A DNA stretch of 44,554 bases from an uncultured bacterium (lineage in GTDB: Bacteria > UBP6 > UBA1177): positions 70,967 to 115,520 of the forward strand of contig CAJOMF010000001.1 of assembly GCA_905235605.1 (NCBI GenBank). The letters run 5' to 3'. The notes under the pieces were generated by a model that ran no database searches, was not told where the DNA came from, and saw only the letters and a program-made list of their open reading frames with translations. Position 1 is the stretch's first letter. Each line of letters opens with the position of its first letter. Below are positions 6,694 through 26,600 of this stretch, piece after piece. Position numbers and translations under genes: made by a program.

Positions 6694-6841
6694 GGAGTTA
6701 TCTGACAGACTTTTTTCTGAGATTTTCTATTTGAATATCCGGGATTGCTTTGTAAAAACGGATGCAAAAATTACGAACAGCTATTCAGACAAGGTGTTTC
6801 TCTAAAAATTTTGATAGGTTTTGTGTTAACAAAAAAATTAT

Positions 6842-6869
6842 TTGCTTTATTGTTTAGTTGTGCTATCAC
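6842..6869 (+). promoter_or_regulatory. Promoter of the CFI-box/vWA operon
   Basis: TTGCTT (6842-6847), a 16-bp spacer and TATCAC (6864-6869) preceded by TGC form an extended -10 promoter about 90 bp before the start at 6957. The rest of the 263-bp gap after uppS shows no gene and no clear terminator. Confidence 0.5.
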
Positions 6870-6956
6870 CATTTAATCTGTTCTTTTTATTTTTATAAGT
6901 ATGTTTCGGGAAGTCCCGTTTCAGGATATTTCTTAACTTTTTAGAAGGAGAAAATC

Positions 6957-7517
6957 ATGGCTGAAAGAAGAAGCACTTATGTCTTTTCATCGGAAGGATG
7001 CTATGATGAAGCAAAAGATCATCTCTATCGGGAAATGTATTCGGATTACAACAACTCAGATTGTCTTTATTTCTACGGGCAATGGGGATCTGACTGCTGG
7101 AGAATCGATATCTACAGCGACTGTTCAGATGCACCGAAAGCGGCTGACATAATGAGAGAACATGGTGGTAAGTATTACAAGGAAGAAAGCGGCGGTTGTT
7201 TTGTTACAACAGCTGTCTGCGGCACTTTTGGCAAGCCTGATGATTGCGATGAACTGACTGTATTCAGAAAATTCAGAGACACATTCATGTCAGAAAATGA
7301 AGAAATGAAAGGAGAAGTTGCAAGGTATTACGACATAGCTCCGAGAATTTGTGAGGCTATAGAAAAAAGAGGAAAAGAATATTCAAAAAATACCTATTCT
7401 TGGATTTGGGACACATTTTTATCTAAAGCTTATGATGCTTTGAACAACCACGAGTTTGAAAAGGCGCATGAGATATACAAAGATATGGTTTTGAAATTGG
7501 AAAAAATTTATCTGTAA
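6957..7517 (+). CDS. CFI-box-CTERM domain protein
   Basis: The 186-residue protein has no signal peptide or membrane segment. Its central part, GGCFVTTAVCGTFGKPDDCD followed by ELTVFRKFRDTFM and YDIAPRICEAI, matches the pattern of the CFI-box C-terminal domain (C-F-x-T-T-A-x-x-G ... L..FRd.f). That domain occurs at the ends of many bacterial proteins and has no firm function. The first 70 residues are acidic and aromatic (YFYGQWGSDCWRIDIYSDC) and I do not recognise them. The last 45 look helical, perhaps TPR-like. AAGGAG upstream supports the start. It heads the operon that continues into the TerY-type vWA gene, so a role with that signalling module is an inference from position. Confidence 0.65.
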   Translation: MAERRSTYVFSSEGCYDEAKDHLYREMYSDYNNSDCLYFYGQWGSDCWRIDIYSDCSDAPKAADIMREHGGKYYKEESGGCFVTTAVCGTFGKPDDCDELTVFRKFRDTFMSENEEMKGEVARYYDIAPRICEAIEKRGKEYSKNTYSWIWDTFLSKAYDALNNHEFEKAHEIYKDMVLKLEKIYL

Positions 7518-7534
7518 GTTTCAGGAATAAGGCA

Positions 7535-7807
7535 ATGACTTACTTGGAAGAATTGCAGGAACAAAGGAAAAACGCATTAATTGTGGTTTGCACCTTTGGT
7601 TTAACAGCTTTGTTAATGGAAAGGTTCAGGCCTGTTTGGTTGACCAACCTTTTTGAAGGCACATCATTTATGGAAAACGAAGGTTTGGCTTTTGTTTTAA
7701 AGATGCTTTCTTTCTGTTTTCTTGGTGTATTATTGGTGAGTGTTTTCTGGATAATCAACGTGTTCAAACTGATTTATTACTCAATTTTGATAGCGAGGCA
7801 GCCGTAA
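7535..7807 (+). CDS. Small two-helix membrane protein, unknown
   Basis: The 90-residue protein has two hydrophobic segments, about residues 14-30 (LIVVCTFGLTALLM) and 55-83 (VLKMLSFCFLGVLLVSVFWI...). A short polar N-terminus and a central loop rich in Asn and Glu complete it. I recognise no family. It starts 17 bp after the CFI-box gene and overlaps the next gene by one base (TAATG), so it is translated as part of the same operon. It could anchor a partner of the vWA/kinase module, which is inference only. Confidence 0.6.
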   Translation: MTYLEELQEQRKNALIVVCTFGLTALLMERFRPVWLTNLFEGTSFMENEGLAFVLKMLSFCFLGVLLVSVFWIINVFKLIYYSILIARQP

Positions 7808-8079
7808 TGCCGACATATATAGCCAGCCGCTGGTCTTCCAATGACAATATCGCGTTTCCGGACAGACTGGAAATCGATGCAATAAATGTCACATATTATA
7901 AAGGTGCTGTTATAGGTCACACTTCAGTAGTTATTGCCAGATCGAACATTGCAAGTGTTCATCTGAGAACAGGTTTCTTTTTTGCCGATGTGATAATCGA
8001 AACTACAGGCGGAAAGGAAATCGAAGCTGTAGGATTTAAAAAGAGTGATGCAAGGGCGATTCTCGCCTTGTTGAGTTAA
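7807..8079 (+). CDS. Small beta-rich protein, possibly PH-like
   Basis: The 90-residue soluble protein alternates short strands (RLEIDAINVTYYKG; TSVVIARSNIASVHLRTGFFFADVIIETTGG) and ends in one helix (KKSDARAILALLS). That order resembles bacterial PH-like domains, in which a beta barrel is capped by a C-terminal helix. The sequence match is too weak to name a family. It is coupled by a one-base overlap to the small membrane protein before it and lies 22 bp before the vWA gene. It could bind a membrane or a protein partner within this operon. Confidence 0.55.
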   Translation: MPTYIASRWSSNDNIAFPDRLEIDAINVTYYKGAVIGHTSVVIARSNIASVHLRTGFFFADVIIETTGGKEIEAVGFKKSDARAILALLS

Positions 8080-8101
8080 ATTAATATTTTGGGAGGGAAA
8101 C

Positions 8102-8809
8102 ATGTTAGAGTTGCAACAAGAAAGATTTGGTAATGATTCCAGTGCAAAAGAAGAATTGTCGGCACCGAATGAACCGCATTTAGCTTGTGTGTTGTTGCTT
8201 GACACATCAGGTTCAATGGCTGGCGCTCCTATTACGAGTTTAAATAATGCGGTAAACCAATTTAAAGAACAGGTTTGCAAAGATCCGACTTCTAGAAAAA
8301 GGATAGATATTGCTATTATTGAGTTCAATACCGATGTGAAGGTTGTTCAGGAATTTACACCTATTTCTAAAATGGAATTTGTCGATCTTACTGCTAACGG
8401 GGGCACATCAATGGGCAAGGGAATAAATGCAGCCATTGATAAAGTGATTGAGAGAAATCAATTGTATGCAAAAATGGGGACACCGTGCTACAAGCCATGG
8501 ATTTTCATGATTACTGATGGTGCTCCAACAGATGATATTTCTTCAGCAAGAGCCAGGATTGCAGAACGTGAAAGTATAGGTGAAGTTGGAAAATTGAAAT
8601 TTTGGGCTGTTGGGGTTCCTGGATATGATGAAGACACACTTAAATCTCTTTCCAAACGCGTTATTGCTCTTAAGGGAGCTGATTTTACGAATATTTTTGA
8701 TTGGTTAAGTAAGAGTATGGCTATTATAAGTGTAAGTCAGGTAACGGATAATCCTCAACTTGGAAAATTACCTGAAGATGCTCGTATAATTCCGCCAGAT
8801 TTGTGTTAG
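8102..8809 (+). CDS. TerY-like von Willebrand factor A domain protein
   Basis: The 235-residue protein is almost entirely one vWA domain. The metal-ion-dependent adhesion site is complete: DTSGSM starting at D34, a Thr in GGTSMGKGINAAID, and the Asp in FMITDGAPTDD. This form matches the TerY/YegL family, cytosolic vWA proteins that accompany a PP2C phosphatase and a protein kinase in the TerY-P triad. Both follow directly here, at 8871 and 10079. The family is linked to stress-related and metal-related complexes, where the vWA domain is thought to act as a scaffold. A strong GGGAGGG site supports the start. An intrinsic terminator lies right after the stop codon, so the downstream genes are probably transcribed at a lower level or from their own promoter. 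Confidence 0.88.
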   Translation: MLELQQERFGNDSSAKEELSAPNEPHLACVLLLDTSGSMAGAPITSLNNAVNQFKEQVCKDPTSRKRIDIAIIEFNTDVKVVQEFTPISKMEFVDLTANGGTSMGKGINAAIDKVIERNQLYAKMGTPCYKPWIFMITDGAPTDDISSARARIAERESIGEVGKLKFWAVGVPGYDEDTLKSLSKRVIALKGADFTNIFDWLSKSMAIISVSQVTDNPQLGKLPEDARIIPPDLC

Positions 8810-8817
8810 AGTCTTTT

Positions 8818-8849
8818 GCCGAGTTGGGAAAAACTCAACTCGGCTTTTT
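8818..8849 (+). terminator. Intrinsic terminator between the vWA and PP2C genes
   Basis: GCCGAGTTG (8818-8826) pairs perfectly with CAACTCGGC (8836-8844) around a short A-rich loop and is followed by TTTTT. It begins 9 bp after the vWA stop codon and ends 22 bp before the PP2C start, so it would act as an internal terminator or attenuator within the triad. Confidence 0.85.
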
Positions 8850-8870
8850 CGTAATTAAATGGAGGAGAGA

Positions 8871-9995
8871 ATGACAGAAGAGGCCAATATATTTGCGTAT
8901 GGTTTCAGTTTGCAAGGAAAATCTCATAAAGCGGAAAATGTTTGTTGTCAGGATTCAAATAAAATTACGAAAGTAGAAAATTTATATATCGTTGCTGTTG
9001 CAGACGGTGTAGGTTCTGCTGCGAATTCTCAAAGAGGTTCCTCGATAGCTGTTAATGTAGCAACAGATTATTTTTCTAAAAATTATAGTAAAAAATCTGA
9101 CATTAGATTTTTGATTAAACAATCGTTTGCAGAAGCATTGAATCGAATATTTGAAGATGCAAAAAACAACAATTTTTCGATAGAAAGTTATGATACAACA
9201 TTGATGATGGCAGTATATGATGGTCAAAAAATGGCCTTTGGTCATTCCGGAGATGGAGCTATTATAGGTCTTACAAATTCGGGTGATTTTATAGAGATCA
9301 CTTCTGTTCAAAAAGGTCTTGAAAAAGAAACCGTTATTCCTCTAAGAGCAGGATCTAATGTTTGGCAAATAGATACTTGTGATAAAAATTTAGCTGCAAT
9401 ACTTTTGTTGACCGATGGTATGTTGGATATTATTTGTCAACCAAGGCTGAAATTATATAAAACAGGAAACAGTGTTTATGTTCCGCTTGCATCATATTTT
9501 TTAGATTTGAAAGGTATTTGTAAAAATCAAACTGCTGCAGATGTGGTAAAAAACATAGAAGAGTTTGTAACAGCAGAGAAAGATTATAATAAAAATACTT
9601 TTTACGCTTGCTTGTCAGCAATTTATAAACAGCACTTATCTGAAGAAGATGCCAATCAACTTATTGAGGAAATCAAAAGAAGTAATGTGCCGGTAGATTC
9701 AATGCAAAATGTTACTGATGATAAAACAGTTGTTGGGTTAATTAATACAGATATTGCGATTGAGAATAAAAGTCTTGGATTTTACAAAGATCCTGATTGG
9801 CTTGCCATATATAATGCTTGGTATAAGGAATTGTACCCACATCTTTGCCGAAATAAAGATGCTGTATCCCATGAAAGTTCGGTTGAAGTATCTGAAAATG
9901 AAGAAATAAAACAAATGGCAAGAAGAGATGAGGAGATCAAGTCTGAAAAAGCAGATAATTATAATAGTGAAGGATATCTGTTTTTTGAAAAATAA
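8871..9995 (+). CDS. PP2C-type serine/threonine phosphatase of the TerY-P triad
   Basis: The 374-residue protein has a PP2C domain at about residues 5-265. Metal-binding motifs visible are QD at 27-28, VAVADGVGSAA with the DG pair at 45-46, GHSGDGAIIGL, and LLTDGMLDII. The last 110 residues are charged and probably flexible. PP2C enzymes use two metal ions to remove phosphate from Ser/Thr, and here the likely target is the kinase encoded next or its substrates. ATG 8871 is chosen over ATG 8859 because GGAGGAG at 8861-8867 stands correctly before it. The gene looks more AT-rich than the flanking housekeeping genes, as does the kinase gene, which suggests shared foreign origin. Confidence 0.88.
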   Translation: MTEEANIFAYGFSLQGKSHKAENVCCQDSNKITKVENLYIVAVADGVGSAANSQRGSSIAVNVATDYFSKNYSKKSDIRFLIKQSFAEALNRIFEDAKNNNFSIESYDTTLMMAVYDGQKMAFGHSGDGAIIGLTNSGDFIEITSVQKGLEKETVIPLRAGSNVWQIDTCDKNLAAILLLTDGMLDIICQPRLKLYKTGNSVYVPLASYFLDLKGICKNQTAADVVKNIEEFVTAEKDYNKNTFYACLSAIYKQHLSEEDANQLIEEIKRSNVPVDSMQNVTDDKTVVGLINTDIAIENKSLGFYKDPDWLAIYNAWYKELYPHLCRNKDAVSHESSVEVSENEEIKQMARRDEEIKSEKADNYNSEGYLFFEK

Positions 9996-10078
9996 ATGAA
10001 TTTTATCTATGTAGAGTATTTCTACTTACAGAATATAAAATGTTGATTAATGAAAATAATATGTTTTGCTGAAGGTAT

Positions 10079-12358
10079 ATGCTTTATTATAATTATTTAA
10101 ACAGGCAAGAGATTTATGAAACCAACCGACTTTTGGGTAAAGGCGGTGAAGGCAGTGTTTACAGTATAAAAAACAACAAAAATTTGGTTTTAAAGGAGTT
10201 CTTTACTGCAAACCGTACAGGAGATCGTTATCAAAAGATATTGTTTATGGTTCAGCATCCCTTGAAAAGCAGTTATTTCCAGGCGGCATGGCCTTGTACG
10301 GTGGTTTGCGACAGCAGTTCTCAATTCGTGGGATATACAATGCCGTGTATTCCGATACAAGACAAAATAAATCAAATATATGAAGTGAATAGCAAATATG
10401 ATTTTAGGGACAGAGTTACTGTTGCGGCGAATCTTTGTGCAGCTATAGATTCTGTTCACAAATCCGGATATGTATGCGGTGATTTAAATCCAGAAAATAT
10501 CACTGCGAATCCAAATACAGGTGAAATAATTCTTCTTGATTGTGATTCATATCACGTTACGGATCATGCTTCTGGCAGGACATTCCGGTGTATTGTCGGC
10601 AGACCGGAAAACCTTCCTCCTGAAATATTGAAACGTATGACTAATGGAAAAACATTAGATAAATTAACCTTGCCGACCTTTACTATAGAATCCGATCTTT
10701 TTGCCTTGGCGGAACATATATTTGCTTTGTTGATGAACGGCTGTCATCCTTTTGCCTGTGCGAGCAGCAATCCGAATGTATTTCCTCAGCCGGTAGACAA
10801 TATTCGCAATGGTTTTACACCGTTTTTTCAAAAACAGTCTGGTTTAACGATTCCGGTTTATGCTCCTGAAATTTCAATACTTCCTAAAAACATTCAACAA
10901 TATTTTTTCAGAGCATTTGTTGACGGTAACAAGAATCCAAAAGCACGTCCGACAGCCGAAGAATGGTATATTGTTCTTAAGGAAATGAAAAAGCATCTCA
11001 ACTCATGTTCTAAGAACTCTCGTCATATATTTTCAGATCACTTAAGTAGTTGTCCTTGGTGTAAAGTTAATTCAAGAATAAATAGTGTTAATAACACACC
11101 GTTTAACAGTAATAGAAATCATCATCCGCAACCATATCCGATCCCACAACCACACCCGATTCAGCAACAGTATTCGAATTCTGCACATCAAAGATCTTCA
11201 AGTAATAATTCAGGATGCGTAATATTCTTTATTATAGCAATAGTTGTTGCCATAATAATATTTTTTGTCATGAATAATGATTCAAGTGGCGGTTATCACG
11301 CAGATGATAATTATAATAGTAACTATAGTGGGGAATACAAAAATAATAAAATTTGGTCTTCTCCTTCTTCACATACTATGAATTGGAAAGCAGCTGTTTC
11401 ATACTGTCGTAATCTTCGTGAAGGCGGTTATAATGATTGGAAACTCCCCAATATTGATGAATTACGTACGCTTATTCGAAATTGTTCTAACACTGTTGTA
11501 AATGGAAGATGCAGAGTTACAGAGAAATATAATTGTTTGTCAAATGATTGTTGGAATCCGAAAGGTTTTTGCTATTGTGATAGAGATACTTCTGGTTATT
11601 ACAGCAAGTATGGTGATGGAGGTTATTTCTGGTCATCTTCTGAGAATTCTTCGGATGCCGATTTTGCATGGGGAGTTAATTTTTATCGTGGAGGGGTAGA
11701 TAGCTATACTAGGTATAGTGATGAATATGGTCATGCCCGCTGTGTTAGATATGGGAATAATAGTTATTCAAATACTATTGGTTCGGTTAGTAGCAAAAAT
11801 AAGTATAGTTCTCAAGGCTCAAGTTCCAACAATTATAACACAAGTAGCAATCATAACACCAGTCAAACTACTAATAGTTATATGTGGTCGTCTCTTTCTT
11901 CCGACTACATGAGTTGGGAAAATGCGGTAAATTATTGTAGAAATCTTAGAGAAAATGGCTATTATGACTGGAGATTACCAACGATTGATGAGCTTAGAAC
12001 ACTTATAAAAAATTCTCCGAAAACAGAGATAAATGGTGCTTGTAAAGTAAGTGCAAAATCAGCTTGCTTATCAGAAGAAAAATGTTGGAGTATAGAAACA
12101 TGTGCCGCAGAGTGTGAAAAAGAAGCTGAGTGTGATAATTGTGATTTGATTTATTGGAATTGCAGAAATACTGCTTCTGATGGTAGATACAGCAAGAAAG
12201 GTGACAGAGAATCACTTTTCTCATCTTCTATCGTTAGCGAAAGTGTGGCTTGTACTTATGTCTGGTATGTAAATTTCGGGAATGGTAGTATTTTTAGTGG
12301 CGAAACAGAAGGAGATTGTATTTCGCTTTTATATTCATATGTCCGCTGTGTCAGATAA
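10079..12358 (+). CDS. Transmembrane protein kinase with two extracytoplasmic DUF1566/Lcl-type domains
   Basis: The 759-residue protein has a kinase domain at about 10-310: LGKGGEGSVY loop (18-27), Lys39 in LVLKEF, catalytic GDLNPEN (D135, N140), and LLDCDSY (154-156) in place of DFG. The GD.N...N and DCDS forms are those of the COG4248 kinases found in TerY-P triads. A Cys/His cluster (SCPWC) precedes a low-complexity linker and one membrane helix (about 379-399, CVIFFIIAIVVAIIIFFVM). Outside the membrane lie two DUF1566 domains (about 425-562 and 600-759), each with WKxAVxYCRNLRExGYxDWxLP and IDELRTLI. Each ends in a version of the RCVR signature and has several Cys. COG4248 kinases usually carry helix-hairpin-helix domains instead. 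GAAGG before ATG 10079 supports the start. The module likely couples external binding to Ser/Thr phosphorylation. Confidence 0.85.
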   Translation: MLYYNYLNRQEIYETNRLLGKGGEGSVYSIKNNKNLVLKEFFTANRTGDRYQKILFMVQHPLKSSYFQAAWPCTVVCDSSSQFVGYTMPCIPIQDKINQIYEVNSKYDFRDRVTVAANLCAAIDSVHKSGYVCGDLNPENITANPNTGEIILLDCDSYHVTDHASGRTFRCIVGRPENLPPEILKRMTNGKTLDKLTLPTFTIESDLFALAEHIFALLMNGCHPFACASSNPNVFPQPVDNIRNGFTPFFQKQSGLTIPVYAPEISILPKNIQQYFFRAFVDGNKNPKARPTAEEWYIVLKEMKKHLNSCSKNSRHIFSDHLSSCPWCKVNSRINSVNNTPFNSNRNHHPQPYPIPQPHPIQQQYSNSAHQRSSSNNSGCVIFFIIAIVVAIIIFFVMNNDSSGGYHADDNYNSNYSGEYKNNKIWSSPSSHTMNWKAAVSYCRNLREGGYNDWKLPNIDELRTLIRNCSNTVVNGRCRVTEKYNCLSNDCWNPKGFCYCDRDTSGYYSKYGDGGYFWSSSENSSDADFAWGVNFYRGGVDSYTRYSDEYGHARCVRYGNNSYSNTIGSVSSKNKYSSQGSSSNNYNTSSNHNTSQTTNSYMWSSLSSDYMSWENAVNYCRNLRENGYYDWRLPTIDELRTLIKNSPKTEINGACKVSAKSACLSEEKCWSIETCAAECEKEAECDNCDLIYWNCRNTASDGRYSKKGDRESLFSSSIVSESVACTYVWYVNFGNGSIFSGETEGDCISLLYSYVRCVR

Positions 12359-12406
12359 AAAAATATGTCAATATATTTTGATTTTTTGTCCAGAAATCCT
12401 TGACCA

Positions 12407-13324
12407 TTATAAACATCTCTTAGACCTAAATTCAACAGGTGTCATCCAATTCAGTTTTTTCTGAATCCGCCTGTTGTTATAATATTCAATAAATTCAAGG
12501 ATCATTCGTTCCATTTCCTTATAACTGAGAAGGCCGTTTTTCAAAGTGTCATAGTAATTTGTTTCTGATTTTACAGTCCCGAAAAACCGTTCCATACACG
12601 CATTGTCCCGGCAGTTTCCTTTGCGGCTCATGCTTTGAACAAGATTCAGTTCCTGTGACTGTTTTATTGCTTCCTCATACCGTTTGTCATAATTTTTCGG
12701 AATCATGGATTCTGTTGCCGTAACTGCGTTTTGATTGTTCTTGTTTTTAAAAAAGCTGCGGTAGGTGCTGTCCTGGTAAATTCCACCTTGATCAGAATGG
12801 ATCATAGTATCTTTCAACTTATATTTTCTTAACAATTCCACTAATGTATCACAAGAAAGCCTGTGATCCATTGTCGGTGACATGTTGGCAACAAGAACCG
12901 ATCCGTCGTGCTGATCCAGAACCGGGCTTAAATAAAGCCAGCCTTCCGTTACCTTGAAATACGAAACATCCGTGCTCAGTTTCTTTAACGGTTCGGCTGC
13001 TTTGAAATCGCGGTTAAGCTCGTTTTTCGGAAGATTCTCTTCATTTGCCTTCTGCGTTTTATAATAGTTCTTCGGGAACTTCCGTCTTCTGTTTGTTGTT
13101 TCTATACCGGCTTCTTTGCAGATTCTCGCTACTCGCTTGTGATTCACAGGTATCCCTTTCCTTTTCAACAGTTGCGACTTGCGTTTTGCTCCGCATTTAT
13201 TGATTTCTACCGGCTCAAGCTGCTTTATTGCTTCCAAAACCACAGCGTCTTTTTCTTTCCACAGCGCTTCGGATTTTTTCCCGTAATAAAAGGATGATCT
13301 CGGTATTTTTGTCGCTTTACACAT
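12407..13324 (-). CDS. IS3-family transposase OrfB (DDE integrase domain)
   Basis: The 305-residue catalytic protein has a helix-turn-helix/linker region (KQLEPVEINKCGAKRKSQLL) and then an rve integrase core. The catalytic residues are D119 (STDVSYF), D178 (HSDQG) and E245 (CMERFFGTVKSE). SMSRKGNCRDNA and YYNNRRIQKKLNWMTPVEF are classic IS3 blocks. Odd point: IS3 enzymes have about 35 residues between the second Asp and the Glu, whereas here there are 66, because about 31 extra residues (about 192-225) follow QDSTYRSFF. The extra segment stays in frame. Normal expression is probably as an OrfAB fusion through frameshifting at 13381-13389. Activity is uncertain because of the extra segment. 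Confidence 0.9.
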   Translation of the reverse strand: MCKATKIPRSSFYYGKKSEALWKEKDAVVLEAIKQLEPVEINKCGAKRKSQLLKRKGIPVNHKRVARICKEAGIETTNRRRKFPKNYYKTQKANEENLPKNELNRDFKAAEPLKKLSTDVSYFKVTEGWLYLSPVLDQHDGSVLVANMSPTMDHRLSCDTLVELLRKYKLKDTMIHSDQGGIYQDSTYRSFFKNKNNQNAVTATESMIPKNYDKRYEEAIKQSQELNLVQSMSRKGNCRDNACMERFFGTVKSETNYYDTLKNGLLSYKEMERMILEFIEYYNNRRIQKKLNWMTPVEFRSKRCL

Positions 13325-13335
13325 CTTTTTTACGC

Positions 13336-13704
13336 TTATTCCTTTTTGTTCGCAGTATTTTCCGAGACTTTTAACTGTGCTTTTTTTTTATTCTCTTCCT
13401 TAATCTGCTCCTTTAACTCGTTAGCGTAAAACTCCCAGAAATCTGCCGCAAGCATTGAAAGTTCAAGCTGTTTCTCAAGCTCATCGCGGCTCATCCCTTT
13501 GATTTCTTTGATGTTTTTCTTCCTCGTCTCAAATAGGTTTTTCTTCATTATATCTCCTTTCGAGCCGTAGGTTTTGACCCAGTCTCTAACAGTGTCACGC
13601 TTTAACCCGTGCCGTTTCGCCAATGTCAGATAACCGCCTAACCCGAACTCGTACTCTGTCAAAACCTGCTCACGCAACTCCAAAGGATAATGATTTACTC
13701 CCAT
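13336..13704 (-). CDS. IS3-family transposase OrfA (helix-turn-helix)
   Basis: The 122-residue DNA-binding protein begins MGVNHYPLELREQVLTEYEF, with a helix-turn-helix in YLTLAKRHGLKRDTVRDWVK. A helical segment rich in Glu and Lys follows that may mediate multimerisation. It binds the IS ends and regulates transposition. The gene ends 11 bp before orfB's ATG. An A9 run near its 3' end permits a -1 slip that joins it in frame to orfB. Confidence 0.85.
   Translation of the reverse strand: MGVNHYPLELREQVLTEYEFGLGGYLTLAKRHGLKRDTVRDWVKTYGSKGDIMKKNLFETRKKNIKEIKGMSRDELEKQLELSMLAADFWEFYANELKEQIKEENKKKAQLKVSENTANKKE
13381..13389 (-). other. Slippery A9 run for programmed -1 frameshifting in the IS3 element
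   Basis: Nine T on the plus strand are nine A in the orfA message. After a -1 slip the frame stays open and reads STVKSLGKYCEQKGISVKKM straight into the first Met of orfB. This is the usual way IS3 elements make their OrfAB transposase. Confidence 0.7.
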
Positions 13705-13770
13705 TTTTCCACCTCTCTTTAATGGGTGTCCAAACTTTGGGGGTCAGAACAGCGAGGAGAAATCAACAAT

Positions 13771-14715
13771 ATGGGGGATACCTTTTATGTGAAAGTTGTT
13801 TTTAACGCAGTAAGCCCTAGTCTTAGAAGGGTCACGGCTGGTAACTTTGACTGTGCCATTTCCGATTCGCTTGCCAAGTGTACCAGAGATTTCGCAAAAA
13901 AATTTTCTGAAGACCCAAATATCCTGGAAGAGGGAAAGCGGGCAAACACTGTTATTCAGCAGGAAAAGGAGAAACCGCACCTGATTTATGGTTTTCTTAA
14001 CGTTTTTCCGTCGGATATCGGCAGATATGAAAAGATCCCAAAAGAAATTATGAAAAAAATCAATGCAAGCGATGCATTTAAAGATCAAGATTGTGAAGAT
14101 TGGCGTGTTCCAACAGAAAACGAGATCGTTTTGCTTGCCAGTGAAGGTCTCATCTTAAAAACAGAAAATTACATGACTGATAAAACAGGTAATGGACACC
14201 TTAGACCTGTGGCAAGTTGCAAAAAATCAAAAGATAGTAATGAGGTTTTCTCCCAACAGAATTTGGTGAATTATAGCCAACCGGAAGTCATTTACGGTTT
14301 TCTCAAAGTTTTTCCAAAGGATATAGGCGAATATAATAGAAGACCGACAGAGATTGTGGAAAAGATCAATTCAAGCAGCGAATCTGGAATTTACGGCTGC
14401 AAAAACTGGCGTATTCCGACGGAAAACGAGGTCGCTTTGCTTGCAAGCAGAGGAATTGTCATAAAAGCGGAAGAGTATTTGTCCAGTAATGGAAAAAGTA
14501 AGGGTTCGCTTCGTCTGGTTGCGGATATGCCGGGATACGAGACTGAACCTGAAGAAGATACAGACAATAAAGACAACGAATCCTATGCGGACGAAAAACA
14601 TGACAATGTTGAAGAACCTGAATCTGGTGCAAAACTGAAACAGGATTCTCGGTCAAAACCAGAAAACTCTACAGTAAAACACTCTTCTAAAGGTTGTGCG
14701 GCAGATATCTTATAA
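13771..14715 (+). CDS. Protein with two degenerate DUF1566-like repeats, cytosolic
   Basis: The 314-residue protein has no signal peptide or membrane helix. Two tandem units of about 100 residues (about 70-150 and 168-258) each run from YGFLxVFPxDIGxYxxxPxEI through DWRVPTENEIVLLAS or NWRIPTENEVALLAS to LRPVAS/LRLVAD. The WR.PTE.E core resembles the DWRLP..DEL core of DUF1566 domains, but the Cys residues and the WSS and RCVR blocks are lost. The tail is acidic and low complexity. An in-frame extension upstream would start inside the IS3 end, so ATG 13771 with GAGGAG at 13754-13759 is preferred. It is probably a diverged paralogue of the neighbouring DUF1566 genes. Its function is unknown. 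Confidence 0.6.
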   Translation: MGDTFYVKVVFNAVSPSLRRVTAGNFDCAISDSLAKCTRDFAKKFSEDPNILEEGKRANTVIQQEKEKPHLIYGFLNVFPSDIGRYEKIPKEIMKKINASDAFKDQDCEDWRVPTENEIVLLASEGLILKTENYMTDKTGNGHLRPVASCKKSKDSNEVFSQQNLVNYSQPEVIYGFLKVFPKDIGEYNRRPTEIVEKINSSSESGIYGCKNWRIPTENEVALLASRGIVIKAEEYLSSNGKSKGSLRLVADMPGYETEPEEDTDNKDNESYADEKHDNVEEPESGAKLKQDSRSKPENSTVKHSSKGCAADIL

Positions 14716-14730
14716 TATAAAAAGGAGCAG

Positions 14731-14859
14731 ATGATGAAAAAATCCATGGTTTCAACATTTTTTGTTGTTTTGTTCGCGACATTGACAGTTTTTGCTCAGA
14801 AAGCTGGGAGTATTCAAGATCAGCAGGTCTGTGAATATATAATGCTCAAGTGTTTCTAA
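14731..14859 (+). CDS. 42-residue secreted peptide or truncated secreted protein
   Basis: AAAGGAG at 14721-14727 stands well before two adjacent ATGs (14731 and 14734). The product begins MMKKSMVSTFFVVLFATLTV and continues FAQ before KAGSIQDQQ. That is a textbook signal peptide with a likely cut after FAQ, leaving only about 20 residues to the TAA at 14857. Such a short mature part suggests the 5' stump of a longer exported protein whose remainder was lost when the adjacent island arrived. A genuine small exported peptide cannot be excluded. Confidence 0.5.
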   Translation: MMKKSMVSTFFVVLFATLTVFAQKAGSIQDQQVCEYIMLKCF

Positions 14860-15028
14860 ACAGAAAATTTCTCTCTCAAAGTGTTTTTCTCCCCACTGTC
14901 TAAATTATCTGCAAGACTAAGCAGAATGACATAGGAATAGATAAGAATATATTGCTTATAGCGAGTTGGCGAACACAGATGTTTAATATTTTCGTAATTT
15001 TGTTTAATACTATAATATTAAAAAAATA
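14860..15028 (+). other. AT-rich spacer at the left edge of the peptide-modification island, no gene seen
   Basis: No open frame with a ribosome site, no tRNA-like fold and no strong hairpin is visible. With the promoter and 5' leader that follow, it makes a 332-bp stretch before the peptide gene at 15192. It is a plausible junction zone between the truncated secreted gene and the imported cluster. Confidence 0.5.
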
Positions 15029-15056
15029 TTGACTGTATTTTCCGATAGAATATTGT
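15029..15056 (+). promoter_or_regulatory. Promoter of the peptide-modification cluster
   Basis: TTGACT (15029-15034), a 16-bp spacer and TATTGT (15051-15056) lie upstream of the peptide gene. Transcription from here would leave a 5' leader of about 130 nt before ATG 15192. Confidence 0.6.
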
Positions 15057-15191
15057 TGTTTGTGTTTTGGACAAGTACTCAGTAGTGAGGAAAGTCAGTC
15101 AATCTTGGGTGCAATTATGTGCCGAACGAATGCGTCAATTCGTGAACAACAAGTCTCAGCTGTGACGCTGGCTGAAAAAAGGAGTGCAAAC

Positions 15192-15314
15192 ATGAATTCA
15201 GAACAGGAATTCACCTTAGAGCTTGTGTGTGACGGTAATGCCGTATCAGGCGAGGTCAAGACGAGTCGATGCTGTCCAGGCGAATGCATTGAGGGCCCTG
15301 GTCAAAAAAAGTAG
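15192..15314 (+). CDS. Candidate RiPP precursor peptide, Cys-rich, 40 residues
   Basis: The peptide starts MNSEQEFTLELVCDGNAVSG and ends EVKTSRCCPGECIEGPGQKK. The acidic, hydrophobic first half (EFTLELV) looks like a leader. The second half holds C27, C28 and C32 in SRCCPGECIEGPG, with C13 further upstream. AGGAG at 15180-15184 supports this ATG; the frame is open upstream to 15060 but only with a TTG start and no ribosome site. It is followed by a strong hairpin and then two radical SAM/SPASM genes. That order (short peptide, attenuator, maturases) is typical of ribosomally made, modified peptides. Thioether, epimerised or glycosylated residues are all possible; the sequence does not decide. 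I recognise no known precursor family. Confidence 0.65.
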   Translation: MNSEQEFTLELVCDGNAVSGEVKTSRCCPGECIEGPGQKK

Positions 15315-15329
15315 GGTGACAGATGTTTG

Positions 15330-15370
15330 CGGCCACTGCGGTAAGCCGCGTGGCCGTTTTCAATTTTTTC
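15330..15370 (+). terminator. Hairpin attenuator between the precursor and maturase genes
   Basis: CGGCCAC-T-GCGG (15330-15341) pairs with CCGCGTGGCCG (15346-15356) around a TAAG loop, leaving one bulged T. TTTTCAATTTTTT follows. It starts 15 bp after the peptide stop codon and would keep precursor mRNA in excess over enzyme mRNA. Confidence 0.8.
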
Positions 15371-15386
15371 AAAGAAAGGAGGTTCT

Positions 15387-16625
15387 ATGCAAAACTATAA
15401 GTTAAATGGGGAAATTTATCTTGTTCGCGGTGCGGCGAAGAGTTGCGTCTACGATATAGGACACAATAAACTATTCTCCGTTGACAAATCTGTTGCTGAT
15501 ACGATTGAAAATGCTGTTTTGGGGAAAGAATATCCTCTCAAATCCGCTATTGTAGATGCATTGATGGCAAATGGCATTATTGTGCCATCAAATGAACCCA
15601 TGTCAGCCATGCCCTGCATTGGAGAATTGTTTGAAGGTATTGACCGTAAAATTGATTTTGCTTGGATAGAGGTGACAAATGTGTGCAATCTGAAATGCAG
15701 TCATTGCTACAATGAAACGAATCGTCCGTACCATCGATCTATGTCGTTTGCTGATTTCAAACATGTGTGCGATGAACTGGTTGCCTATGGTGTTTCGGAA
15801 ATCCAAATGATTGGTGGAGAACCGTTTATTATTCCGGAAGATCAACTTTTCCAAATGTTGTCATATGCTCACGAGAAATTCAAATCCATAGAACTATTCT
15901 TTAATGGTACTATGGTTTCTCGTGCACAATTAGAGTGGATTAAGGGAAATGTCCCTAAAACTCGTATTGCGCTTTCTTTACATTCTTTTATCGAGGAAGA
16001 ACAGGATAGGTTCGCACAGGTTCATGGTTCCTATAAGAAGATTACGGAAACACTAAAAAATCTTAAAGAGCTTGGTATAACATACCGTTATGTTGGTGTC
16101 TACTCATCTATGATAAAAGTTGGAGAAGAGTTAGATTTTGGTGTTCCTTACAAACGTGACTACATTCGCTTAACAGGTCGTGCCTCACTTCAACATTATG
16201 ACCGTAAACTGCTGAAAGAGCGCCTTAAAACACGTGACGTTTTTAAGTTTAATGACTTAAAGAAAACAATTTTGGACATTTGGTCATCCAATTGTTTTTC
16301 AAAGTATTTCTATATTTCCAGCGATCTCGAGGTTTATCCATGCGTAATGGAAAGGCGATTTTCCCATGGTAATTTAGCGGGGCGAGGACTAAATGAAATT
16401 GTGGATGCGTCTCTTTTGAATTTTTCAAAAGACAATGTTCGTGGATGTTGTGATTGTGAATATCGCTATGTCTGTCTTGATTGTCGTCCAGATTCAATTT
16501 CTGGAGATAAATATGAAAAACCATGGTTTTGTTTGTATGACGAACAAAATGGTGTATGGCGTGATGCCGATGTTCGTGCCGATGAACTATTGAAACTTGC
16601 GGAGCGGCCAATATGCGTGAAATGA
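15387..16625 (+). CDS. Radical SAM/SPASM peptide maturase
   Basis: The 412-residue enzyme has three parts. Residues 1-80 (YKLNGEIYLVRGAAKSCVYD; LFSVDKSVADTIENAV; LMANGIIVP) have the pattern of a PqqD-like leader-recognition (RRE) domain. The radical SAM core follows, with the 4Fe-4S motif C100-x3-C104-x2-C107 in VCNLKCSHCYNE and IQMIGGEPF as the GGE motif. The end is a SPASM-type auxiliary cluster region with C319 (YPCVMER) and C354, C355, C357, C363 and C366 (RGCCDCEYRYVCLDC). Such enzymes install thioether or C-C links, or epimerise residues, in RiPP precursors. AGGAGG upstream is very strong. It overlaps the next gene by 13 bp. The substrate is probably the 40-residue peptide at 15192. Confidence 0.88.
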   Translation: MQNYKLNGEIYLVRGAAKSCVYDIGHNKLFSVDKSVADTIENAVLGKEYPLKSAIVDALMANGIIVPSNEPMSAMPCIGELFEGIDRKIDFAWIEVTNVCNLKCSHCYNETNRPYHRSMSFADFKHVCDELVAYGVSEIQMIGGEPFIIPEDQLFQMLSYAHEKFKSIELFFNGTMVSRAQLEWIKGNVPKTRIALSLHSFIEEEQDRFAQVHGSYKKITETLKNLKELGITYRYVGVYSSMIKVGEELDFGVPYKRDYIRLTGRASLQHYDRKLLKERLKTRDVFKFNDLKKTILDIWSSNCFSKYFYISSDLEVYPCVMERRFSHGNLAGRGLNEIVDASLLNFSKDNVRGCCDCEYRYVCLDCRPDSISGDKYEKPWFCLYDEQNGVWRDADVRADELLKLAERPICVK

Positions 16626-18550
16626 CCATGTCAGGCGAGGTTTTAAGAGGATCGCGCGTGCATCTTCGCCCCTTTGATATAAAAACAGATGCGGCATATA
16701 TTTTCAGCATTTGTAGCAAAGAAGAAACAGTCAGGTTTTACGGAATGGAACCAATGAAATCTGTTGCGGAGGCCGAAAGACTTTTGTCGGCATATGCATC
16801 GGGAACTGCCGCAGGAACATCGTTGCATTGGGCAATCACAGATGCTGTAACTGACAAAGTCATCGGTGATGCTGGAATTATGTCCATAGACGCTAATAAC
16901 TATCGAGCGAGTTCATATTGTATTCTTGATGCACAGTATTGGGGAATGGGGTTGTCATACGATGCGATGAAAATGCTTTTTGATTATGTTTTTTCTACAA
17001 CAAATCTCAATCGTATCCATGCATATGTCGATAAAAGAAATAAGAGGACAATAAAAAGTGTTCAAGGAATTGGTTTTGTTCTCGAAGGCATTCTTCGTGA
17101 GTACGAATTCGATAAAGGTGAGTTTATAGACGATGCTGTTTTTTCACTAACACGCTCAGATTGGTGTAAAATTAGACATGCTGTATTCGGTGCTCGAGAA
17201 AGACAGGCTCGGCAAAAGTTTTCATGGCAGTATTATGAATTTGGTGATGAGCATTACGTATGGATTTTTGACGGCGAGAAACAACGATACCATCTTTTGA
17301 CAGGCCTGGATGCGGATAGATGGCTAAAAGCTGAGAATCCTATGATTCTGTTATGCGATGAAGGTTTCTCTACTAATGACGAACAAGTTATTCAATTCCT
17401 GTCAAGACTTAGGGTCGAGGATATCGTTTATGAAGTCCATTGGGATGTGACTAATGCTTGCAATTCCAAGTGCAAACATTGTTACAATTATGGTGCTCAC
17501 AATGGTAGCCGAGATTGTGTTGAAGGTGATATGTCAGATGATGAGTGTCGGGACTTGTTGAAAGCAATGCGCGAGAAAGGGGTATTTCGTATTGTATTCT
17601 CAGGGGGTGAGCCGCTAATACGAAAAGGCTTTTTGGAACTTGTGCGTGAGGCACGCGAACTAGGCTTCCAAGTTGTCATTTACACAAATGGTATTCTTGT
17701 GGATGAGGTGATTGCTGACCAAATAGCCAAACTTTGTCCGGTTTCAGTTGGAGTGAGTGCGTATGGAGCATCTGCAGCAACTCATGATGAGGTTACAGGA
17801 ATTTACGGATCTTTCGAGAAAAGTATGAACGCATTATGCCTTTTGTCTGAACGTGGTGTGCATACTGTTATGAAATGTGTGGTTCTTCACTCCAATTTTA
17901 AGGAAATAGCTGCAATGCGGACACTTGGTCTTCAAATTGCGGAAAATGTATATTTTAACTATATCTTTTATCCTAGCTTAGACAATGCGGTGGAAATGAA
18001 TGAACAGATGTTGCGAATGTCGGAAATAGTGACATTGGCATTGGAACCGGAGTCTGAAATCTATTTTGGAAAGCAATCACATCAGCTTTGTCGCTATGAA
18101 CCTAACAGAGATTATGTGTGTACGCAAGTGCAAAGGTCTTTATATTTGAACTCGCGGGGACAAGTATTTCCTTGTATTGCTGTTCCTTGTGCGGCGGGAA
18201 ACTGGAGAGGCTTTTTTACTAGAGCAAAGCGTTGTGCTGATGATGCGATACTGTCATATTGGCGAAAATTGAGGTTCTCCGATATTCCATTATGTGGAAA
18301 GCATGACTATTGTCTATTCTGTTATTCAGCATGTTCAGGTGATGGTTTGCTTGTAAACAGAGATGAACACTTGCCTCCAACAAACCATTGTCGCCTGGCA
18401 ATTGGAAGGTATGTTGCGTCAAGATTGAAGGTAATTCATCATAATAGTGAAGAAATAGCTGTCTTACAATTAAATGACAGTGTACTTGTTGATTATATGA
18501 GTTCTCTTGGGATTTCTAGAGATGAGTATGAGGTTAGAGGAATTCTCTGA
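16613..18550 (+). CDS. GNAT acetyltransferase-radical SAM/SPASM fusion
   Basis: The 645-residue fusion begins with a RimJ/RimL-type GNAT domain (about 15-190: LRGSRVHLRPF; YWGMGLSYDAMKMLFDYVF; NLNRIHAYVDKRNKRTIKS). Residues about 200-275 (YVWIFDGEKQRYHLLTGLDA; VIQFLSRLRVEDIVYE) look like a second PqqD-like recognition domain. The radical SAM core carries C283-x3-C287-x2-C290 (ACNSKCKHCYN) and FSGGEPL. The C-terminal region has SPASM-type Cys (FPCIAVPC; CGKHDYCLFCYSAC; NHC). It is translationally coupled, overlapping its neighbours by 13 bp and 1 bp. Presumably it acylates and oxidatively modifies the same peptide. A joint GNAT-radical SAM protein is unusual. The start at 16613 is favoured over internal Met codons by a weak GGAG and the overlap. 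Confidence 0.85.
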   Translation: MREMTMSGEVLRGSRVHLRPFDIKTDAAYIFSICSKEETVRFYGMEPMKSVAEAERLLSAYASGTAAGTSLHWAITDAVTDKVIGDAGIMSIDANNYRASSYCILDAQYWGMGLSYDAMKMLFDYVFSTTNLNRIHAYVDKRNKRTIKSVQGIGFVLEGILREYEFDKGEFIDDAVFSLTRSDWCKIRHAVFGARERQARQKFSWQYYEFGDEHYVWIFDGEKQRYHLLTGLDADRWLKAENPMILLCDEGFSTNDEQVIQFLSRLRVEDIVYEVHWDVTNACNSKCKHCYNYGAHNGSRDCVEGDMSDDECRDLLKAMREKGVFRIVFSGGEPLIRKGFLELVREARELGFQVVIYTNGILVDEVIADQIAKLCPVSVGVSAYGASAATHDEVTGIYGSFEKSMNALCLLSERGVHTVMKCVVLHSNFKEIAAMRTLGLQIAENVYFNYIFYPSLDNAVEMNEQMLRMSEIVTLALEPESEIYFGKQSHQLCRYEPNRDYVCTQVQRSLYLNSRGQVFPCIAVPCAAGNWRGFFTRAKRCADDAILSYWRKLRFSDIPLCGKHDYCLFCYSACSGDGLLVNRDEHLPPTNHCRLAIGRYVASRLKVIHHNSEEIAVLQLNDSVLVDYMSSLGISRDEYEVRGIL

Positions 18551-19578
18551 TGGAAGCTGAAACTCAAGAGAGAATTGTTTTATCAATTGTTATTCCTGTT
18601 TGGAATAGAGCTCATGAAATTGTTCACACCATTTGTTCTATAGTGCCTCAATTCACAGAATATAATGCAGAAATTATTGTTGTTGATGATGCTTCCTCTG
18701 ATGACACTGTTTCCATTGTCAAACGTCTTGCGAATGATTATCCGTGCATCAGGTTTTTACCTGTTTTGAAACATTGCGGTGCTGCTGCTGCTCGTAATAA
18801 GGGGCTAGAAATGGCCAGAGGCCGTTATATATGGTTTGTTGACTCGGACGATTTGGTTGCTGAAGGTGCCTTGCCCATAATAATGGCGGAATTAGAAAAG
18901 GGGGAGGCTGACATTCTCCGTTTTAATTGTGTCAAGATGTCAGAACGCCCGAAAGCTTATCGCATGGATGCTACATGGAATGTTGAGGTTAAGAAAATTG
19001 ATATCACTTCTGACTATGCTGCCTTTTATGCATTTTTGTGCTGGGGCAGTGTTTGGAATGCCATTTTTTCGCGAGAGCTCATCGGTGACACCAAGTTTGA
19101 TGAATCCTTTGCTTTCGGTGAGGACGCGCCATTTTCATGGAAATTGGCATCGCGTGCCAAGTCTTGCTTTTTTATTGACGCTCCCTTGTATGTTTATATG
19201 AATACGTTAGGCTCGATGACATCTCAGAAAACCGTGGAAAGATTTCGGTGCTATCTCCGGCAAATCGAAAAATTGCGTTATTTGACTGATTGTTCGGAGC
19301 TGAGGGAAGAATGGAAGAATTCTCTGAGGATCTCATGTCGCAATCGTGTATTCTCTCATGTTTTCTTTTGCTTTTCATGGAGCGAGATTAATTCGGAAAT
19401 GTGGAATGATTGGTTTCTTTTCTATAGGCGTTTTTTTGTTGAAGATTCAATGCGTCCGCTAACGAGGCGATTTCTATCAAAAATGCTTTTTGTTTTGAAT
19501 TCGCGTATAGCAGTTTATATAGTTTTTTTTCTGCGTTACGCTAAACTCCTAGCTTTAGGAAAAGTTCATCTTCCGTAA
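18550..19578 (+). CDS. GT-A (family 2) glycosyltransferase
   Basis: The 342-residue protein has an N-terminal GT2 domain: LSIVIPVWNRAHEI, IIVVDDASSDDT, GAAAARNKGLEMARGRYIWF and the metal/nucleotide site D98-S-D-D101. The GEDAPFSWKLASRA block is the acceptor-side acid region. The C-terminal third is basic and aromatic (HVFFCFSW; IVFFLRYAKLLALG) and may sit on the membrane surface, but no clear transmembrane helix is needed. It transfers a sugar from a nucleotide donor. The one-base TGATG overlap with the radical SAM gene argues that the acceptor is the modified peptide or a linked carrier. It is not in a polysaccharide locus. Confidence 0.88.
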   Translation: MEAETQERIVLSIVIPVWNRAHEIVHTICSIVPQFTEYNAEIIVVDDASSDDTVSIVKRLANDYPCIRFLPVLKHCGAAAARNKGLEMARGRYIWFVDSDDLVAEGALPIIMAELEKGEADILRFNCVKMSERPKAYRMDATWNVEVKKIDITSDYAAFYAFLCWGSVWNAIFSRELIGDTKFDESFAFGEDAPFSWKLASRAKSCFFIDAPLYVYMNTLGSMTSQKTVERFRCYLRQIEKLRYLTDCSELREEWKNSLRISCRNRVFSHVFFCFSWSEINSEMWNDWFLFYRRFFVEDSMRPLTRRFLSKMLFVLNSRIAVYIVFFLRYAKLLALGKVHLP

Positions 19579-19602
19579 AAAACAAGATTTGGGGTTGTCA
19601 AA

Positions 19603-20616
19603 ATGAAGGATGATATTTATCTGGTTGTTGACCAAGGGGCAAGCAAGACTATTGCTCTGGCTGTTTCACCTACAGGGAGCATTCTTGCGTTTGCCGATGA
19701 TTACGCACTTGTAAAAAATCACGGAAGAGAACGGATAGGTCCAGAAATCCGCTTGAAGTTTGTTGTTAGAAATTTGGTAGAAAAAATTGGCAACAGAAAT
19801 ATATGTTTTTCAAAATCATGTATTGCTGTTAATGGGATAAACACCCCGGAGGATGCGGAATCTTTTAGGAAAAGATTGCTTGGGATCGTTGCTTTTGGTG
19901 AAACGCTTATTATTAACGACAGTATTGCAGCCCTGCATGGGGGGTTCATTGAAATGCCGCAAGAGGAGAACCTTGTTGTTATTTGCGCTGGAACACGCTT
20001 TAATTGTCATGCAGAAACGGCAAAAGGAGGTGTTGCAACCTTGGGGTGGCGGGTTTCTTGTCAGGATCACGGAGCATTTGCACTAGGAGGGAAGGCTTGG
20101 GATGCTGCTGTTGATGGTTTTAACGGATTAAAGGCTGCTACGAAGTTGACGGATCTTTTCATTCGACATTTTTCAACTCCGGGGATGGATGCTCTTATGG
20201 AAGGATTTTTTTCTGGCGCAATTCCATTTGATACTCCTTCTTTTGCACCTTTGCTTTTCGATGCGGCATCGATTGAAGATGAAGTTGCTTTAGGCATTGT
20301 TGATATGTTTGCTTCAAGATGGGTGAGCTACGCCAAACTGTCATTGCAATTGGCTGGCGAAAAAGAACTGACGCATGGAAATATTGTACTTTCTGGAGGT
20401 GTTTTCAAATTTGACAGAGGATTTCTTCAAAAAGCCATTATGCTAAGCGCAAAAGAGAAATTACCATTATTTTCAATTTGTTGTGCACAGTTTGAACCTG
20501 TAGGTGGAGCCGCACTTTTCCTTTTCCGGAAAATATATGACAAAGCTAAAATGAGAGGTATTGCAAAGGAGTTTTCTTCTTCGTATTTGCAGAAGATAAA
20601 AATGAGACACTTATAA
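19603..20616 (+). CDS. BadF/BadG-superfamily ATPase, GlcNAc-kinase-like
   Basis: The 337-residue ASKHA-fold protein has the phosphate-1 loop in YLVVDQGASKTIALAVSPTG, the Asp-bearing IINDSIAALHGG, an adenosine-site ICAGTRFNCHAE, and GWRVSCQDHGAFALGGKAWD, which corresponds to the GG.G...GDEGSA block of N-acetylglucosamine kinases. IVLSGGVFKF and GGAALFLFRK close the fold. It lacks the CxxG 4Fe-4S Cys of dehydratase activators, so a sugar kinase is more likely. It begins 24 bp after the glycosyltransferase and ends the island. It could supply or phosphorylate the sugar used for peptide glycosylation, or act on a peptide-borne sugar. Substrate unknown. Confidence 0.75.
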   Translation: MKDDIYLVVDQGASKTIALAVSPTGSILAFADDYALVKNHGRERIGPEIRLKFVVRNLVEKIGNRNICFSKSCIAVNGINTPEDAESFRKRLLGIVAFGETLIINDSIAALHGGFIEMPQEENLVVICAGTRFNCHAETAKGGVATLGWRVSCQDHGAFALGGKAWDAAVDGFNGLKAATKLTDLFIRHFSTPGMDALMEGFFSGAIPFDTPSFAPLLFDAASIEDEVALGIVDMFASRWVSYAKLSLQLAGEKELTHGNIVLSGGVFKFDRGFLQKAIMLSAKEKLPLFSICCAQFEPVGGAALFLFRKIYDKAKMRGIAKEFSSSYLQKIKMRHL

Positions 20617-20680
20617 GTGAGAAGAATATAGATTAAATTCTTTCTGTAAATTAATTATCACCTGATTTTTGTAGATTATA

Positions 20681-20709
20681 TTCCAAAAATATGTATAGCA
20701 GTTTATATG
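20681..20709 (+). promoter_or_regulatory. Weak candidate promoter of the LRR/Sel1 gene group
   Basis: TTCCAA (20681-20686), a 17-bp spacer and TATATG (20704-20709) lie in the 147-bp AT-rich gap after the island. The match is poor at both hexamers. Confidence 0.3.
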
Positions 20710-20763
20710 TGATTTCGGGGGTAGAAATTCTGCAAAAATAGATGAGAAAAACCGGAGGGCAAA

Positions 20764-21774: not shown

Positions 21775-21791
21775 TGATATCGGAGGCTTTT

Positions 21792-24689: not shown

Positions 24690-24704
24690 TCAGGAGGTTC
24701 GGTC

Positions 24705-25631: not shown

Positions 25632-25736
25632 TGCTTGTTAAATTGTGATTTCGATATTCAAGACTAACCAATCCATAAAGTCACGCATCGTATAAAAACA
25701 AAAATAAAATATTCTTTGAAAAAAGTGTTCTTTTTA

Positions 25737-25764
25737 TTGCAAAATATATTTCTTTAAGTAAATT
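25737..25764 (+). promoter_or_regulatory. Promoter of the single-DUF1566 gene
   Basis: TTGCAA (25737-25742), a 16-bp spacer and TAAATT (25759-25764) lie 37 bp before ATG 25802. The remainder of the 25632-25801 gap is AT-rich with no visible gene. Confidence 0.45.
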
Positions 25765-25801
25765 ACCTCGTTTTTTTGGTATGACGCTGAAGGATAACGG
25801 A

Positions 25802-26419: not shown

Positions 26420-26473
26420 CGTTTCCCTGAAAAGATATTTCTTCTGAAATTTTCTCATTAAATCAAAAAACAG

Positions 26474-26496: not shown

Positions 26497-26600
26497 CTGA
26501 AAAACAATGCCGTAGAGGAATTCACCTGTGTCTTGAGTGCAGAAAATATCCTTAAATTTCAAGTATATATGTGAAAATAATATTTTTTTCAAAAAAAGTG

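Follow-up and report, generated by a model that had tools for sequence, protein, structure and literature searches.

A YegL-PphC-YegI type triad whose predicted transmembrane kinase carries two Lcl_C domains

In a stretch of 44,554 nucleotides from an uncultured bacterium (GTDB lineage Bacteria; UBP6; UBA1177; GenBank assembly GCA_905235605.1, contig CAJOMF010000001.1, positions 70,967 to 115,520; hereafter the window), three adjacent and co-directional genes at 8102-12358 (+ strand) encode a vWA protein, then a PP2C phosphatase and then a YegI-type Ser/Thr kinase. Judged by its sequence, the locus is a TerY-P triad of the YegL-PphC-YegI type with intact catalytic and metal-binding residues. 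The triad, the membrane kinase and the fusion of kinases to C-type lectin (CLec) domains are each already known; new are the Lcl_C tail on a YegI-family kinase, seen in one case only, and an upstream cassette that is separable from the triad. YegI-family triads are found in many bacteria and, to our knowledge, none has an identified signal. A member whose scaffold repeats are replaced by lectin domains of ligand-binding type offers a handle for finding an input, and the kinase links YegI-type triads to Lcl_C proteins.

Results and discussion

The vWA-PP2C-kinase triad

The features of the triad are as follows (Lcl_C is the present name of the domain formerly called DUF1566):

8102..8809, + strand: vWA protein (TerY/YegL type), 235 aa; PF00092, 42.7 bits
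8818..8844, + strand: terminator-like hairpin between the vWA and PP2C genes; 11-bp stem, then TTTTT
8859..9995, + strand: PP2C-type Ser/Thr phosphatase, 378 aa; PP2C_2 PF13672, 97 bits
10079..12358, + strand: transmembrane Ser/Thr kinase with Lcl_C tail, 759 aa; Pfam, hydropathy
10079..10993, + strand: kinase domain, residues 1-305; GKGGEG loop, K39, D135-L-N-P-E-N140, D154
11006..11062, + strand: zinc-knuckle-like motif C310-x5-H316-x8-C325-P-W-C328; residue conservation
11216..11272, + strand: membrane helix, residues 380-398; hydropathy, mean Kyte-Doolittle 3.55
11351..11749, + strand: Lcl_C (DUF1566) domain 1, residues 425-557; PF07603 and model
11876..12355, + strand: Lcl_C (DUF1566) domain 2, residues 600-759; second PF07603 stretch, alignment with domain 1

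An earlier reading of the letters and translations (the sequence-only reading) had placed six genes at 6957-12358 and called the last three a TerY-P triad. Six open reading frames (ORFs) do lie there, all on the + strand and with intergenic gaps of -1 to 83 bases. The triad genes, 49 and 83 bases apart, follow the order of E. coli K-12 yegL-pphC-yegI, and their products are 39% identical to YegL (across 186 aa), 24% to PphC (across 131 aa) and 28% to YegI (over 340 columns). Homologous loci in which these genes lie apart were looked for as evidence to the contrary; vWA, PP2C and kinase genes are clustered in 15 of the 17 homologous loci, so chance can be excluded for the triad and the assignment stands. 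The exceptions are L011, which holds a PP2C gene only, and L016, which has neither a vWA nor a PP2C gene. The order is vWA-PP2C-kinase in seven loci (L005-L010, L014) and kinase-vWA-PP2C in eight.

The residues D34-x-S36-x-S38, T102 and D139, invariant among eight aligned vWA proteins, are read by us as those of a metal ion-dependent adhesion site, and D32, D49, G50, D132, D186, G187, D287 and D288 are invariant among nine aligned PP2C proteins, E. coli PphC included. The region of the hairpin (8800-8860) folds as RNA at -19 kcal/mol (z -4.0), and the hairpin, unique in the window, hints that the vWA protein is made in larger amounts than the phosphatase and the kinase. A promoter scan gave 22 sites against 21.5 in shuffles, i.e. 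no excess. Association of TerY-P triads with restriction or DNA-processing genes is frequent, not invariant; Pfam, NCBI-type profile and PADLOC scans found none among the six operon genes.

The kinase and its Lcl_C tail

The kinase domain matches PF00069 at 32.9 bits (cut-off 31.7), with motifs reading GDLNPENI and LLDCDS. Absence of catalytic residues, which would have spoken against the sequence-only reading, was looked for in the alignment; the Gly-rich loop, K39, D135, N140 and D154 are all present and conserved. The AlphaFold2 model of the domain is confident (predicted local distance difference test, pLDDT, 89.2), and every one of the 50 PDB neighbours listed for it is a kinase or a kinase homology domain, among them M. 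tuberculosis PknB 5u94 (Z 18.9, 252 residues, root-mean-square deviation, rmsd, 3.8). The C-x5-H-x8-C-x2-C motif after the domain is a putative zinc knuckle or ribbon: H316, C325 and C328 are invariant across 20 kinases and C310 is found in at least 90%. A Pro/Gln/Ser-rich linker leads from it to a single hydrophobic segment (residues 380-398), from which we infer an N-in/C-out topology.

Past this segment (residues 399-759) lie 20 Cys, compared with 12 before it, and two stretches matching PF07603 (111.4 bits for the protein, cut-off 34.9). The one membrane helix, the two DUF1566 domains and the many Cys after the helix thus stand as the sequence-only reading described them, whereas the helix does not hold as a distinguishing mark (below). 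The kinase has no PASTA domain match in Pfam, and a PDB sequence search with the ectodomain gave no match. Domain 1 was modelled from eight sequences; its pLDDT is 67.8 overall, with well-predicted ends and a weak stretch at residues 50-90. By VIA-align, the C-terminal domain (CTD) of Legionella Lcl (8q4e; Z 10.9, 97 aligned residues, rmsd 2.2) and Bdellovibrio Bd2740 (8oks; Z 10.9, 92 residues, 2.4 A) are its joint top neighbours, with C-type lectins ranking next, and Foldseek again places 8q4e first; a C-type-lectin fold is predicted for domain 1 accordingly. The Lcl CTD is reported as a trimer that binds glycosaminoglycans, and DUF1566 is suggested in the same source to act in carbohydrate recognition or to promote trimer formation (PMC11162425).

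A signal-like sequence, a lipobox or a membrane segment precedes the first Lcl_C domain in 36 of the 57 Lcl_C ORFs of the genome, the kinase included, and the protein of the genome that is closest to domain 1 reads as a lipoprotein when an internal Met is taken as its start.

Comparison with other YegI-family kinases

The 17 loci, which came from one contig scan, together with profile-search loci and further loci gave 38 kinase ORFs; removal of the window kinase and four duplicates left 33 others. The profile search covered 386 genomes of many families and found kinase matches in 11, including the window's own. By hydropathy, 28 of the 33 carry a predicted membrane segment after the kinase domain; the five without one are L002, L003, L009 (cut by a contig end), L021 and L102. 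YegI, too, is described as membrane bound (PMC13232886), and the helix therefore does not separate the window kinase from its usual relatives, as had been supposed. Nor is helix-hairpin-helix the usual tail: by reading of the sequences it is one of many types, beside TPR, WD40, MORN-like, BspA-type leucine-rich repeats, SH3-like, PEGA-like and multi-helix tails. The same kinase-Lcl_C fusion, sought in related genomes, was found in none of the 33 kinases. The comparison suggests that kinase, knuckle and membrane anchor are constant in the family, and that the tail, which varies, may be the input.

In the kinase tree the window sequence falls inside a group of Bacillota and Treponema (94/89), on a long branch whose place within the group is not settled. 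A plasmid search returned related kinases in 114 records; in none did the match reach 80% query coverage, and the 15 listed matches fall within kinase residues 9-346 only; a phage search returned two distant related kinases. One congener (locus L003, G003:C7) has a distant kinase, 26% identical, with a vWA gene next to it, i.e. another triad-like system in the genus.

An accessory insert between uppS and mraZ

The operon lies in the following insert, delimited by comparison of the uppS-mraZ distance with that in congeners:

6694..26660, no strand: accessory insert carrying the operon, between uppS and mraZ

Of the 14 congeners, 13 were fetched for this comparison, seven of which show no mraZ after uppS in the fetched stretch. 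The distance is about 168-209 bp in four congeners, where mraZ, mraW and the cell-wall cluster come right after uppS, and 20 kb in the window; G007 and G012 have gaps of 5.8 kb and 6.3 kb with other cargo. The kinase family was not found at 1e-20 in any of the 14 congeners, and third-position G+C is 21-31% in the triad versus 46-57% in dnaK, dnaJ, uppS, mraZ and mraW. The size of the insert, the absence of the kinase family from congeners and the low third-position G+C of the triad together identify the triad, on compositional and comparative grounds, as cargo of acquired DNA at a variable uppS-mraZ site.

The fusion of kinase and Lcl_C may have arrived ready made, rather than been built from the genome's own Lcl_C stock, because its Lcl_C DNA shares the low third-position G+C of the triad (24.2%, the lowest among the 57 Lcl_C ORFs). 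In favour of a local origin, domain 1 scores 137.9 bits with another Lcl_C protein of the genome and only 78.8 bits with domain 2.

The dnaK and dnaJ genes were considered as partners of the triad, an Hsp70 gene (yegD) lying beside yegI in E. coli. They were rejected: dnaK-dnaJ-uppS occur together in 13 congeners without the kinase at 1e-20, dnaK being cut by a contig end in two of these.

The upstream cassette

Three genes precede the triad:

6957..7517, + strand: CFI-box protein, first cassette gene; NF041770, 51 bits, cut-off 40
7535..7807, + strand: small protein with two hydrophobic segments by eye; conserved with G012
7807..8079, + strand: PH-like protein; PF03703 17.5 bits and PF14470 16.6 bits, both under the cut-off

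The CFI-box label given by the sequence-only reading is borne out by a profile match over the cut-off; the PH-like label is weak, and the small protein has no family match in Pfam or the second profile library. None of the 17 homologous loci shows these genes together with the triad, a co-occurrence that the same reading had proposed to look for. Among 31 genomes searched, the CFI-box and PH-like genes occur only in the window's own and in G012, where the CFI-box protein is 80% identical (a copy in 1 of 30 other genomes) and the PH-like protein 99%. Similarity to G012 (81.7% in 1169 columns) begins 19 bases before the CFI-box gene and breaks off where the PH gene ends; it includes a 232-bp perfect block at 7790-8021, the rest being about 74-86% identical.

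In G012 the cassette is followed by a 661-aa exported-looking protein, then a tubulin-like protein (491 aa; sub-threshold tubulin match, 24.8 bits, cut-off 33), a 1123-aa protein with no family match and coiled-coil proteins. Since the trio precedes a tubulin-like module there, it is separable from the triad; the two may still be coupled in the window genome. The tubulin-like module (L120, G012:C65) also includes repeated coiled-coil membrane proteins.

Lcl_C expansion and a diversity-generating retroelement

Lcl_C is greatly expanded in the genome, with 102 domain matches in 2.7 Mb, and the other 14 congeners have at least 41 to 63 matches per genome. The contig L024 (G000:C86) carries a diversity-generating retroelement (DGR) made up of a truncated Lcl_C target with its variable region, an Asn-rich template and a reverse transcriptase (about 12-112, 747-866 and 865-2313); the genome has no other reverse transcriptase match. 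The template reads as an Asn-rich Lcl_C end, and the matching variable region agrees with it at 67 of 80 bases, with one mismatch, by reading, not at adenine. An Rfam scan of the contig gave no match. Domains of Lcl_C type are reported among those that DGRs use (PMC4159848).

When 72 Lcl_C ends, the template itself among them, were compared with the template, six other ends had a non-A identity of at least 0.85 (best 0.85-0.92) with changes concentrated at A (p 1.2e-3 to 1.3e-5, uncorrected). Only ends with high non-A identity are taken as targets, since variable Asn codons also yield a Fisher excess at A, which by itself is therefore weak evidence. Remote variable regions, at least six, are thus located in L030, L032 (twice), L047, L049 and L057. 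The two kinase ends have a non-A identity of 0.62 each and no significant A excess (Fisher p 0.067 and 0.16), and diversification of the kinase was rejected on these values. By these comparisons the DGR appears to diversify other Lcl_C domains of the genome, not detectably those of the kinase, for which such a role is not supported.

A second template-like, Asn-rich Lcl_C end is found at L054:6151, inside an ORF at 5668-6270 and on a contig other than that of the sole reverse transcriptase match. In it, 5 of 44 template adenines are changed, versus 14 of 70 other positions.

A proposed receptor and its alternatives

We favour, as somewhat more likely than not, a model in which the kinase is the receptor of an accessory TerY-P triad, clustered by its lectin-fold ectodomain and reset by the PP2C phosphatase. 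An N-terminal cytosolic kinase, a zinc-knuckle motif and a flexible linker would be joined by one membrane helix to two extracytoplasmic Lcl_C domains, which would bind a ligand outside the membrane (a glycan or a surface protein) and, by analogy with trimeric Legionella Lcl, would self-associate. Clustering would bring the kinase domains together for trans-autophosphorylation, the phosphatase would strip the phosphates and so reset the kinase, and the vWA protein may be the metal-dependent peptide-binding adaptor of the triad. For E. coli, YegI is reported as a membrane kinase that autophosphorylates and is dephosphorylated by PphC (PMC13232886). The signal-receiving triad of the sequence-only reading is retained in this model, the receptor-like layout making it the natural interpretation, without the notion that a membrane helix sets the kinase apart.

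Several observations weigh against the model. The charge bias round the helix is slight (K+R 1 and D+E 0 before; K+R 2 and D+E 4 after). In the domain 1 model 43 of 141 residues are below pLDDT 50, and by Foldseek alone the best E is only 1.9e-3. Signal and membrane segments are absent from 21 of the 57 Lcl_C ORFs (several cut by contig ends or with unsure starts), and Lcl_C alone is therefore no proof of an outside location. The terminator-like hairpin parts the vWA gene from the PP2C and kinase genes and fits one simple operon poorly. Finally, the HRDxK Lys is replaced by N137 and HR by CG, so that activity is not assured. Both changes recur throughout the family; as the Lys is Asn in all 20 aligned kinases, this single clear loss relative to typical kinases is a family trait, which YegI shares.

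The triad might instead be a conflict (anti-phage or abortive) module, in which a kinase switch, set off when the ectodomain detects adsorption or envelope damage, halts growth. Its location in an accessory insert would suit such a role, and TerY-P-like modules, some with OB-fold kinases, are reported to act in defence, also stand-alone, and to accompany CoCoNuT systems (PMC11090510). For GAP1-N2 conflict systems, three alternative themes are described, among them tubulin and a combination of kinase (with zinc ribbon or transmembrane segment), PP2C and vWA (PMC7159879), and the cassette upstream leads into a kinase triad here and, in another species, into a tubulin-like module; the parallel with those alternative modules, an analogy, is suggestive. 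However, scans of the operon with Pfam, the second profile library and PADLOC showed no effector, nuclease, GTPase or GAP1 domain, and Pfam found no GTPase or GAP1 protein among the scanned genes of the operon and island or in the G012 module. The PADLOC matches are weak (kinase at best 24.9 bits, TerY 14.5 bits), and the nearest restriction enzyme (380-3343) lies beyond the core genes dnaK-dnaJ-uppS. We consider the conflict module unlikely, if worth keeping in view. Less probable again is a broader scheme in which the uppS-mraZ insert is one version of a portable membrane-surveillance module: recombination within the PH gene would couple its fixed CFI-box/two-helix/PH cassette to signalling modules that can be exchanged, a kinase triad in the window and a tubulin-like one in a congener, and the kinase ectodomain would come from a lectin repertoire that the lineage diversifies with a DGR. 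If it were true, new receptor specificities could be built by ectodomain swapping.

The role of the tail itself may be questioned. It could be a mere adhesive or anchoring extension, with the kinase controlled from inside through the zinc knuckle and the vWA protein as a metal-sensing switch; knuckle residues are invariant or nearly so while tails differ among relatives, and metal sensing is a stated hypothesis for TerY-P systems in PMC11090510. Two tandem domains with a conserved Lcl_C core have nonetheless been kept, long tails are common in the family, and we find this explanation rather doubtful, a shade more so than the portable module. An antigen receptor diversified by the DGR, as in cyanobacteria, where kinase-CLec fusions are reported as common DGR targets (PMC7517822), would agree with a template that encodes an Lcl_C end and with the existence of remote variable regions. 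It is very improbable here, the non-A identity of the kinase ends being 0.62 (p 0.067 and 0.16) versus 0.85-0.92 for the best remote targets.

Relation to known systems

E. coli yegL-pphC-yegI shares with the window the vWA-PP2C-kinase order, homologous proteins and, by prediction for the window, a membrane kinase; it differs in that YegI, by reading of its sequence, ends in a helix-hairpin-helix type tail without Lcl_C, and in that yegJ lies between pphC and yegI. The TerY-P triads with zinc-ribbon or OB-fold kinases described in PMC11090510 likewise combine vWA, PP2C and a kinase followed by a Cys/His knuckle, but the window kinase adds a predicted membrane helix and a tail of predicted lectin fold. 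A Ser/Thr kinase with a C-terminal C-type-lectin domain is reported in the cyanobacterial DGR fusions (PMC7517822), and one with a C-terminal DUF323/FGE-type domain in chlamydiae (PMC1262709), this domain having a C-type lectin fold according to PMC7159879. The window kinase is of the YegI family; in contrast to both, it has tandem Lcl_C domains and a membrane helix and stands in a vWA-PP2C triad; unlike the cyanobacterial fusions, it is not DGR-diversified by the values given above.

The PASTA kinases (PknB) match its predicted layout of cytosolic kinase, membrane helix and ectodomain (PMC1262709) and its kinase fold, and differ in having PASTA domains where the window kinase has Lcl_C and a vWA partner. 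The Legionella Lcl CTD (8q4e) shares Pfam family and predicted fold with the window domains; it is described as free of disulfides in PMC11162425, whereas the window domains are Cys-rich, fused to a kinase and without a collagen stalk. A literature search found no paper on an Lcl_C/DUF1566-kinase fusion, its coverage excluding most subscription journals, so that this is no proof of absence.

Other genes in and near the insert

Directly after the kinase gene, on the - strand at 12407-13704, two ORFs of 305 and 122 aa resemble transposases, of IS3 type as judged by eye. Further into the insert, a Sel1-repeat protein (21774-24689) has three Lcl_C domains and, at residues 316-334, a membrane segment inside the chain; like the kinase, it pairs an N-terminus of cytosolic type with an Lcl_C tail. 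Two Lcl_C-like proteins have no evident signal or membrane segment: one at 13726-14715 (sub-threshold, 25.9 bits), the other at 25781-26419, with a 98% identical counterpart at this insertion site in G007. The restriction enzyme at 380-3343, near dnaK-dnaJ, is an MmeI-type restriction-methylation protein, with relatives near the same genes in several congeners.

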